In this document: one piece after another, positions 28,714 to 39,712 of the stretch
How positions within the stretch are numbered: the first letter of the stretch is position 1
Layout of the letters: each line of letters opens with the position of its first letter
NCBI GenBank assembly: GCA_017478205.1
Contig: JAFVDZ010000047.1
Span: 1 to 64,000 of the forward strand
Source: Spirochaetales bacterium
Lineage (GTDB): Bacteria > Spirochaetota > Spirochaetia > Sphaerochaetales > Sphaerochaetaceae
Direction: 5' to 3'
Length of the DNA stretch: 64,000 nucleotides
Notes under the pieces: generated by a model
The model's input: only the letters and a program-made list of their open reading frames with translations
The model's database searches: none
What the model was told of the DNA's origin: nothing
Translations under genes and position numbers: made by a program

Positions 28714-29610
28714 CTATTGGGAAAGGACACTCTTCCAGTTATCCGGGAACCCGATATACGAAAGGTTAATTATACTCGAGTAATCCTTGATAAGTGAGCA
28801 CAGACCAATGAAAAAAAAATCCCAGAGAGGTTGATTCTCTTCCAGCATTCTCTTGATTACAAGAAACACCGGGAAAACTTTATTGATTTTACTGTTTCTG
28901 TAAATCCTGTATTCAGAATACAGGAACGGTGTCTGCTTCAATGGCATATTATATAACCTGCTGTAGTGGGCACAAATATTTCTAATTTCCACCAAGGAAA
29001 GAATCCAGCTTTTCAGGTATTTGGGATCAGTGTTGTAAAGAGTTGCAATGCATTTCTTATCCTCATCTTTCATGATATCCAGCAATGATGCCAGATTTCC
29101 AAAAGAAAAAAGCTCGATGGCAACCCAGATTGGGAAATGTCCTCCATATTGCTCATTATGGTGAATCACAAATGGTACCTTTGTTTGTCTGTGACATTCC
29201 TTCCTAAAACTGTCGATGATACTTGAATGAATATCGGTGCCATCTTTCTTATACTTTGAAATAAAGTTCTCTGGATTAACATAACCTTCCGGGCCATACT
29301 TCAAAGCTAGGTAATTTGCAATTTGAGTTCTCAGCTGGATTTCTATCTGCTCGACAGTATGAAGAACAAGACTTCTAAGGGCACTGTCAAACGAATACAG
29401 CTGATATATGTGATCAATGCTGATTCCTTCCTGATAAATCTCCGGGTTATCTTTTCTTTTTAAACCTATTCCATATCCGCTCAGACGATAATAATTGACG
29501 CGTTTCAAAATTCTTAAGGCAGAATCTACATTCGGAATCTGTAAACCATGCTTGTTTTTCAGTTGCTCAATCTGTTGCTCGTATGTCAGTGCACTCTTCA
29601 AAATCTTCAT
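28714..29610 (-). CDS. Abi-like (AbiD/AbiF) HEPN abortive-infection protein
   Basis: A 298-aa member of the Abi_2/AbiD-AbiF family of phage-defence proteins. Family marks are ALTYEQQIEQLKNKHGL, RVNYYRLSGYGIGLK (about 37-51), the helix HTVEQIEIQLRTQIANYLALKYGPEGY and the HEPN ribonuclease motif R210-N-I-C-A-H215 within LVEIRNICAHYSRLYN. HEPN RNases of this kind cut RNA when infection is sensed. The ATG has an AGGGA SD and is preceded by a compact structured RNA with its own promoter and T-run (29626-29690). The gene lies beside a decayed recombinase and a tRNA, so it was probably acquired horizontally. Confidence 0.88.
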   Translation of the reverse strand: MKILKSALTYEQQIEQLKNKHGLQIPNVDSALRILKRVNYYRLSGYGIGLKRKDNPEIYQEGISIDHIYQLYSFDSALRSLVLHTVEQIEIQLRTQIANYLALKYGPEGYVNPENFISKYKKDGTDIHSSIIDSFRKECHRQTKVPFVIHHNEQYGGHFPIWVAIELFSFGNLASLLDIMKDEDKKCIATLYNTDPKYLKSWILSLVEIRNICAHYSRLYNMPLKQTPFLYSEYRIYRNSKINKVFPVFLVIKRMLEENQPLWDFFFIGLCSLIKDYSSIINLSYIGFPDNWKSVLSQ

Positions 29611-29625
29611 GGAAATGTCCCTGAT

Positions 29626-29684
29626 AAAAAAAGTCCTACCGTGGTCCGCAGTGCATTTCTGCCTTATGCGTGGTAGGCTCTGTC
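29626..29684 (-). ncRNA. Small structured RNA upstream of the Abi gene
   Basis: Predicted to run from about 29684 to the T-run at 29632-29626, roughly 59 nt. Three nested stems can be drawn: CCTACC/GGTAGG (29677-29672 with 29640-29635), CGCA/TGCG inside, and GCA-GAAA-TGC with a GAAA tetraloop at the tip. AC plus seven T residues follow, an intrinsic terminator only 15 nt before the Abi ATG. AbiF-type genes have been reported with an associated structured RNA; whether this one belongs to that motif cannot be tested here. Confidence 0.6.
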
Positions 29685-29690
29685 AAGCTT

Positions 29691-29718
29691 AGTGTAATTG
29701 GTTATCCGAAAAAGTCAA
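29691..29718 (-). promoter_or_regulatory. Promoter of the Abi-associated RNA
   Basis: On the minus strand TTGACT (29718-29713), 16-bp spacer, TACACT (29696-29691). Predicted start near 29684, just before the RNA's outer stem. Confidence 0.55.
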
Positions 29719-29755: not shown

Positions 29756-30375
29756 TCAGACCTCTCTCTCATCCCGGAACGTGAACACTATGCCCTTCTC
29801 AGGGTAGACCGTGGCATGGTCTATAAGGATGCTGAACATCATCGGATCGAACTCCGTGATCAGATTGGGCTGGCAGGTCAGAGCCTTGAAGTATTCCCGA
29901 AGCATTCCCTGTCTGCGTTTTCTCTCGTTGATCTCGGTTTCCAGCTCGCTGTGGCGCTTCTTCAATTATTCATATCTTTCAGCAAGACTATCAAAGTCCG
30001 AGGAACCTTCTCCGCAGGAGGAAAGCACAGGCTTGTTCAGAATCTTTTGCATAAGACCGACAACAACTCAATTTCCTGATTCACTGAAGATAACTTATTT
30101 TCACACTTTGAGGTGCTGAATTCTACCATTGTTGCCTTTTCTATGGCCTCCATGACAACGGCTCTGCGGGCGGCCATAAGGCTGTTCTGAGCTTTGATAA
30201 ATGCTGTTTTGATTTCATTCTCCGTGAGATGCAGTGTCTTGCATCCACAACTCTTCAGGTACTTTCCATTGCATTGCCATACAATACGGCGGTATTGGTC
30301 ATTTGAATGCCAGGTCTTGCTTCCGAATTTGTTGCCACACTCAGAGCAAATGAACTTTCCAGAGAATACCGACAT
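29756..30375 (-). pseudogene. Large serine recombinase, C-terminal remnant
   Basis: Two reading frames together spell the C-terminal part of a large serine recombinase. The upstream part (30375-30037) has the zinc-ribbon FSGKFICSECGNKFGSKTWHSNDQYRRIVWQC...CGC; the downstream part (to 29756) has the coiled-coil and the typical ITEFDPMMFSILIDHATVYPEKGIVFTFRD ending. They are separated by a frameshift near 30040 and a TAA where a Glu codon is expected (AERYE*LKKRH, near 29970). The catalytic Ser domain is absent. Its base composition looks richer in G+C than its neighbours. It marks a degenerate mobile element next to tRNA-Leu copy 2. Confidence 0.8.
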
Positions 30376-30380
30376 GTTTA

Positions 30381-30426
30381 TTTTAGTATTTTCGGCTATT
30401 TCGTTTTAGTATTTTCGGCTATTTCA
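30381..30426. repeat. 23-bp tandem direct repeat
   Basis: Two copies of a 23-bp unit, 30381-30403 and 30404-30426, beginning TTTTAGTATTTTCGGC and differing only at the last base. It lies at the upstream edge of the recombinase remnant, where the gene loses similarity, so it may be a junction scar. Confidence 0.75.
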
Positions 30427-30606
30427 TTTTGATAAAGGATTCATCCCCGAATGGGAATGGATAGAACGCTATATGAAATCACATTATTACAGTGACAGGC
30501 TATAGGAAATTCTCCGGAATCTGGCATTCAGCCCAAATAACACTAAAAGCAGCCTCTATGGACTGCTTTCAGGATTGAACTTTGTATTAAAGTTTTTGTT
30601 CAAGGT
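30427..30606. other. Accessory intergenic debris between recombinase remnant and tRNA-Leu copy 2
   Basis: No intact gene. A plus-strand reading at about 30430-30486 gives a short protein-like piece (FIPEWEWIERYM...) that ends at a TAG and that I do not recognise. A hairpin AAAGCAG/CTGCTTT (near 30550-30575) resembles the terminator of tRNA-Leu copy 1, and another inverted repeat GTTCAA/TTGAAC lies nearer the tRNA, suggesting sequence was inserted between tRNA and its terminator. Confidence 0.5.
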
Positions 30607-30690
30607 TGCGGATGACTGGACTTGAACCAGCATAGCCTTTCGACCACTAGCACCTCAAGCTAGCGTGTCTACCAATTCCACCACATCCGC
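30607..30690 (-). tRNA. tRNA-Leu(GAG), copy 2
   Basis: Sequence identical over all 84 nt to copy 1 at 19442-19525; anticodon at 30654-30656 on the minus strand. The 15 nt upstream (ACAACTACCAAATTT) are also identical. CCA is not encoded. Downstream lies foreign-looking sequence, which suggests the 3' end served as an integration site. Confidence 0.95.
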
Positions 30691-39508: not shown

Positions 39509-39611
39509 TTCTCTTTCTCCCTCTTTAGTATTCTAAATTCTAAACTAAAACGAGGGAGATAGGTTACATTAATTTATTGCAGTTTGGTAAAGATTGTTTA
39601 TAATTAATGTT

Positions 39612-39712
39612 GATGATATAAGCCTCGATATGGGTGGGCGTTTCTACCAGGAGCCACTGTAAATCCTGTTCCTATCATTCAAATTCCTCTATTGGAGGCC
39701 GATATGAATGAT
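39612..39712 (+). promoter_or_regulatory. Guanine-type purine riboswitch with start-codon sequestering alternative stem
   Basis: Aptamer: P1 GATGATA (39612-39618) with TATCATT (39673-39679); J1/2 TAA; P2 GCCT/GGGC with L2 GATATGG; J2/3 GTTTCTAC (39640-39647); P3 CAGGA (39648-39652) with TCCTG (39664-39668); L3 GCCACTGTAAA; J3/1 TTCC (39669-39672), C at the ligand-pairing position, so guanine or hypoxanthine rather than adenine. J3/1 looks 2 nt longer than usual. Expression platform: ATCATTCA (39674-39681), including the P1 3' strand, is exactly complementary to TGAATGAT (39705-39712), which overlaps the ATG, and CCTC can pair with the SD. Ligand binding should free the start: a translational ON switch. 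Confidence 0.85.

Follow-up and report, generated by a model that had tools for sequence, protein, structure and literature searches.

The window analysed here, a stretch of 64,000 nucleotides from a Spirochaetales bacterium, carries an abortive-infection (Abi) gene that appears to be preceded by a small transcription unit of its own. This raises the question of whether the unit encodes a genuine RNA and, if so, what this RNA does to the gene behind it. A sequence-only reading had described a TTGACT-16-TACACT promoter, an RNA of about 59 nt with three nested stems and a GAAA tetraloop, seven T residues 15 nt before the ATG and a protein with an intact HEPN motif. All four were present as described (Table 1).

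Table 1. Features of the abiF locus; positions are those of the window.
Feature	Position	Strand	Details
abiF-type gene (Abi_2 HEPN ribonuclease toxin, predicted)	28714..29610	(-)	298 aa; catalytic RNICAH, R210/H215; ATG at 29610, 15 nt beyond the seven T
T7 tract	29626..29632	(-)	2 nt 3' of P1; T5-T7 kept in orthologues
AbiF-type antitoxin RNA element (predicted)	29629..29681	(-)	Conserved 5' of orthologues with covariation; models R2 and R1
Outer stem (P1)	29677-29672 / 29640-29635	(-)	CCTACC pairs with GGTAGG
Second stem (P2)	29670-29667 / 29650-29647	(-)	CGCA pairs with TGCG
Tip (P3)	29662-29660 / 29655-29653	(-)	GCA / GAAA / TGC
Sigma-70-like promoter (predicted)	29691..29718	(-)	TTGACT 29718-29713, TACACT 29696-29691, spacer 16 nt; promoter scan; similar -35/-10 likewise placed in L032, L033, L035 and L036
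Degenerate serine-recombinase 3' part	29756..30375	(-)	5' of promoter; PF13408 Zn_ribbon_recom 6.7e-10 on 30037-30375

The encoded protein is AbiF. Abi_2 (PF07751) was the sole Pfam family that it matched, with an E-value of 2.4e-52 and 178.4 bits against a curated cut-off of 25.6. PADLOC assigned the protein to AbiD (9.3e-94), and phmmer aligned it to PDB chain 8vz6_A (1.2e-23). The AlphaFold model (pLDDT 83.5) had the same chain, entitled “PbAbiF dimer bound to ncRNA,” as its single significant PDB match in Foldseek (TM 0.82, E 8.9e-11). R210 and H215 were unchanged in every aligned homologue (alignments A3 and A4). The gene is the only Abi_2 gene in its genome. A scan of genome contigs gave five orthologues with 58-62% amino acid identity (labels: Lachnospiraceae, Eubacteriales, Sharpea and Fretibacterium), whereas relatives within the window's own order were at most 40% identical, short fragments excepted. 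The nearest orthologues thus lie in other phyla, which suggests horizontal transfer of abiF. A scan of viral contigs with the single protein did not retrieve a close relative.

The leader RNA is composed of a 6-bp P1, a bulged A, a P2 of 3-4 bp, a GAAA-capped P3 mini-hairpin, an unpaired 6-nt GACCAC segment and the start of the U-tract. The promoter is predicted to drive this RNA and, through read-through, abiF. With AC and then the U-tract 3' of P1, the fold probably serves as a leaky intrinsic terminator of the RNA as well. When the window was considered as a single sequence, the evidence for promoter and fold was weak: the fold had a z of -2.1, with 6 of 200 shuffles folding equally well, and the promoter scan returned 8 sites where 3.7 were expected. 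It was the comparison with orthologues that settled the reality of the RNA.

The same RNA was found at the same distance from the ATG in four of the five close orthologues, all from other phyla (Lachnospiraceae, Eubacteriales and a Fretibacterium MAG). It was missing from the fifth (Sharpea, L034) within the 163 nt of upstream sequence of this locus. The P1 stem, CCTACC/GGTAGG in the window, reads CCCACC/GGTGGG in L032 and L033 and CCCTCC/GGAGGG in L035; P3 is larger in L035, with pairing retained, and reads GCCC/GGGU in L058. Immediately 5' of the RNA, each RNA-bearing close orthologue shows a TTGA-like and a TATACT element with a spacing of 16-18 nt. Across 13 AbiF-linked RNAs, 98.3% of the cells were paired and three P1 pairs were altered on both sides, with a covariation score that none of 500 shuffles reached. 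Within the order of the window, many AbiF homologues likewise have an abiF-like hairpin on their 5' side, as judged by eye. Judged by this comparison, the window RNA is real.

We have then investigated how the window RNA relates to the abiF class of Rfam. The sequence-only reading had proposed the Rfam abiF covariance model as the check, and this check failed: RF03085, whose gathering threshold is 37 bits, gave no match to the window RNA at E <= 10 in a 191-base search. The sole weak Rfam match was STnc240 on the opposite strand, far under its threshold, and it was discarded. Elsewhere in the window, a purine-riboswitch-like match (39594-39694, + strand) scored 34.4 bits, slightly below its Rfam threshold of 37.

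The layouts of the two RNAs can nevertheless be superimposed. RF03085 reads CCCGCC-A-AGC-CUCUCAACGAU-GCU-CAAAUC-GGCGGG and the window RNA CCUACC-A-CGC-AUAAGGCAGAAAUGCACU-GCG-GACCAC-GGUAGG. They share a P1 of ~6-7 bp, a bulged A, a 3-bp P2, an apical loop and 5-6 unpaired nt before the 3' half of P1. The window RNA differs in having an extra hairpin, in P2 (CGC/GCG vs. AGC/GCU), in the apical loop (AUAAG-hairpin-ACU instead of the RF03085 loop given above) and in the 3' strand (GACCAC vs. CAAAUC). The RNA of AbiF loci on Bacillales plasmids, CCCACC-A-CGC-CUCUUAACAAU-GCG-GACCAA-GGUGGG, is intermediate between the two.

Two RNA models were used to bridge the classes. Model R1 was built from window-type and plasmid RNAs; it scored 72.8 bits on the window RNA, whose sequence it contains, and picked up RF03085-type RNAs (L038, 5.8e-8). 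Model R2 was built from the short-loop types with the window-type sequences left out; its sole match on the window was the window RNA (E 0.003), and it also matched the abiF motif of the Clostridioides difficile phage phiC2 (1.2e-7). In a cross-class alignment of 18 sequences, 7 of the 10 pairs were changed on both sides, the first pair of P2 being C-G, A-U or U-A, and none of 500 shuffles equalled the covariation of P1 and P2. According to R1 and R2, the window RNA is a divergent, homologous member of the abiF RNAs. A pattern search of 392 genomes from one order returned the known locus only, and a pattern match in L068 that does not form P1 was set aside as chance.

Some loci collected along the way carried additional small RNAs. 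In L048 and L040, a tandem pair of abiF-like RNAs either precedes a single Abi gene or lies between Abi genes. A DUF3800-XI RNA (RF02975) lies near an AbiF-type locus (L008, 743-791, - strand), and a similar-looking hairpin precedes a DUF3800-like gene in L160/L166, near an orphan RNA of genome G126; such pairs of small RNA and effector seem to cluster. Upstream of a lactococcal Abi gene on the Lactococcus plasmid pB26B (L156) there is a small hairpin followed by T7, without the abiF architecture, which may be a further RNA class.

A close described counterpart is AbiFCd-RCd22 of the C. difficile phages phi027/phiC2, which has the same succession of promoter, ncRNA, terminator and abiF, a protein 37% identical to that of the window, and an RNA core matched by the same R2 model. 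RCd22 contains two abiF motifs and a separate terminator, whereas the window RNA has one motif, the extra P3 hairpin and its own P1 before the U-tract. RCd22 neutralises its toxin in cis and in trans through direct binding and is inactivated by stem-breaking mutations (PMC12373285). Another counterpart is PbAbiF-AbiFr of Prevotellaceae (8VZ6; Zilberzwige-Tal et al., Cell 2025, as described in PMC12373285, PMC12737573 and the PDB title), in which one RNA is bound per monomer (PMC12737573). PbAbiF shares family, fold (TM 0.82) and the catalytic R210/H215 with the window AbiF at 24% identity, and both have an adjacent small structured RNA; the comparison covered the protein chains.

A conserved structured ncRNA directly upstream of abiF places the window locus with the AbiF-ncRNA toxin-antitoxin systems. 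It does not conform to the classical type III systems (ToxIN), its toxin being Abi_2 and not ToxN, with a single RNA unit from promoter to ATG instead of tandem ~36-nt repeats. Nor does it conform to Cas13 and type VI CRISPR, with one HEPN motif in 298 aa and a single upstream RNA unit without repeat/spacer array. The description of the locus as an under-described defence system was fair until 2025, but an AbiF with its RNA has since been solved structurally and its toxicity neutralised (8VZ6; PMC12373285). AbiF with an RNA antitoxin is thus already published, and the window RNA is a new sequence variant that Rfam misses. The 2025 Cell paper is described as containing diverse AbiF ncRNA models (PMC12804078), which may cover it.

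Based on the gene, its motif and fold match, and the covarying RNA with its topology, the locus is very probably an AbiF module, that is, a type III-like toxin-antitoxin of abortive-infection defence in which the RNA binds and blocks the toxin. Binding, neutralisation, RNase activity, trigger and defence are ascribed to it by analogy with its relatives. A constitutive promoter would produce the ~59-nt structured RNA, most transcripts would end at the U-tract after the RNA's own P1, and abiF mRNA would arise from occasional read-through. AbiF, a predicted HEPN ribonuclease expected to be a homodimer, would be bound by the abundant RNA and have its active site blocked. Infection by a phage or a shut-off of host transcription would make the short-lived RNA fall and free the toxin. 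Among the roles that the sequence-only reading had listed, the antitoxin-like inhibitor is favoured through homology to AbiF-ncRNA systems tested elsewhere, and a leaky terminator is compatible with it.

The RNA could instead be a cis-acting leader only, a terminator/attenuator or riboswitch-like element that sets the dosage of abiF without binding the protein. A U-tract 15 nt before the ATG makes control by read-through likely, and an effect in cis that reduces abiF transcription has been described for RCd22 as well (PMC12373285). However, the unpaired AUAAG, ACU and GACCAC are as strongly conserved across phyla as the stems, and a plain terminator needs none of them. Moreover, both phages and the genome of the window contain RNAs of this class that no abiF gene accompanies, and the tested relatives work in trans. 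We therefore regard a purely cis-acting role as improbable.

Three copies of the RNA were found with R1 in the genome of the window, on contigs C73 (the window), C23 and C27. The latter two (G000:C23:21995-22047, - strand, and G000:C27:554-607, + strand; loci L162 and L163) are antitoxin RNAs without an abiF gene. The C23 copy leads into a YhcG/DUF1016 nuclease gene and the C27 copy into TetR and ABC-transporter genes. This indicates that some antitoxin-toxin pairs have decayed or separated. Genome G126 has a near-identical orphan RNA, and in G136 the RNA stands before a 46-aa abiF stub. Toxin-less copies of this kind in bacteria may be leftovers or back-up antitoxins; they, including the two in the window's genome, could also act in a decoy-like manner.

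The serine-recombinase part upstream of the promoter is a mobile-element relic; the C23 copy has both this relic and the RNA in common with the window (87% identity over 701 nt, locus L164). The broken relic (29756-30690) has the RNA promoter on one side and a tRNA-Leu gene on the other. Similar arrangements of relic or RNA are found near tRNA genes in L164 and L166, which suggests an insertion hotspot. In principle, the whole module could have come on this element and be eroding with it, the toxin being inactive, and the broken relic, the two genome copies that lost or never had a toxin and the G136 stub speak for such decay. In the window, however, abiF is full length with all invariant residues kept, and its promoter, its RNA and the ribosome-binding region show no damage, which leaves a decaying remnant a slim chance, slightly below that of the cis-acting leader. 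A Cas13-like ribonuclease guided by the leader RNA can practically be dismissed: AbiF is the proposed ancestor of the Cas13 HEPN domains (PMC12165695), but it is described as non-guided (PMC12948488), the RNA is near-invariant between phyla, and neither a spacer nor a repeat array nor a variable guide region is present.

The neutralising antitoxin remains the preferred reading. RNAs of this class also occur in phages. Pattern searches of IMG/VR yielded 82 contigs with window-like or RF03085-like RNAs. An Abi_2 gene was directly downstream in 5 of them and absent from the fetched flank of the other 77, a few of which end soon after the RNA. Of the 50 distinct RF-type orphans, 44 keep the third pair of P1, compared with 24.5 in shuffles (maximum 32), which indicates selection on the helix in the absence of the toxin. 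The RF-type viral matches with a short or broken P1 (L092, L098, L102, L120, L121 and L137 among them) may be degenerate or due to chance; they were retained both when counting and when testing covariation, a test that they can only weaken.

A distant blastn search with the RF consensus matched 79 named phage records. Ten of the 12 phage regions fetched passed the Rfam abiF threshold, and Abi_2 was absent from nine of these ten cultured phages, whose genomes were searched whole (the tenth being Thibault). Orphan RNAs lie inside the tRNA clusters of S-CREM1, S-SZBM1, Bromden and Mimi, the last one under the Rfam threshold; in LittleE and Thibault they have tRNA genes nearby. L151, L152, L154 and L155 (around 1500) hold orphan abiF or abiF-like RNAs in phage tRNA clusters; in three of these phages, the distance between the RNA and tRNA genes is a few nt. 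In T7-Ah and PZL-Ah8 the orphan RNA sits between the connector and scaffold genes; in T7-Ah, 15 nt separate its start from an exact copy of a 15-mer that recurs 16-17 times per genome, always on the same strand, and is likely a promoter of the phage RNA polymerase.

One phage contig suggests how such orphans may have arisen. L042, a phi29-like contig with DNA polymerase, terminase and endolysin genes, has an orphan RNA (around 193-233, - strand) behind a sigma-70-like promoter, TTGACT-17-TACAAT. When compared with the AbiF locus L036, its RNA and 5' leader agree at 65 of 71 positions, an extra T in P1 being common to both, and the likeness stops where the toxin gene would begin. It looks as if the phage had captured the antitoxin alone.

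We lean towards the view that orphan AbiF antitoxin RNAs are decoys that keep the host AbiF off during infection, a putative counter-defence of T7-like, T4-like, phi29-like and mycobacterial phages, cyanophages and uncultivated tailed phages. By analogy, RNA anti-CRISPRs (Racrs) are likewise solitary, phage-borne copies of a defence-system RNA that lack the effector gene; Racrs mimic the CRISPR repeat and block Cas assembly (PMC10651486), whereas the abiF orphans would mimic an antitoxin. The orphan abiF sRNA of the lytic cyanophage S-CREM1 was noted in 2023 through an Rfam search, and the discussion by its authors concerned host regulation rather than an antitoxin decoy or counter-defence (PMC9964418). 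A search of the open-access literature found no proposal of phage abiF decoys.

Rince et al. reportedly observed in 2000 that DNA of the lactococcal phage sk1 protects phage 712 from AbiF. The idea that the protective sk1 DNA encodes an abiF RNA was not supported, with no match to R1 or R2 and no match to the architecture. An Abi gene on an Acinetobacter johnsonii plasmid, compared with the orphan RNA of phage Acj61, had no recognisable upstream RNA, so that a host-phage match was impossible.

With these results, the AbiF RNA antitoxins come to include a sequence class missed by Rfam, and the covariation-backed consensus spanning both RNA classes makes antitoxins recognisable 5' of many genes annotated as “Abi family protein.” Should the orphan RNAs of phages be decoys, a widespread RNA-based counter-defence would exist against AbiF, the proposed Cas13 ancestor. 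They would then form a class parallel to the RNA anti-CRISPRs and account for puzzling small RNAs in phage tRNA clusters and leaders, and their role would be open to testing with existing phages.
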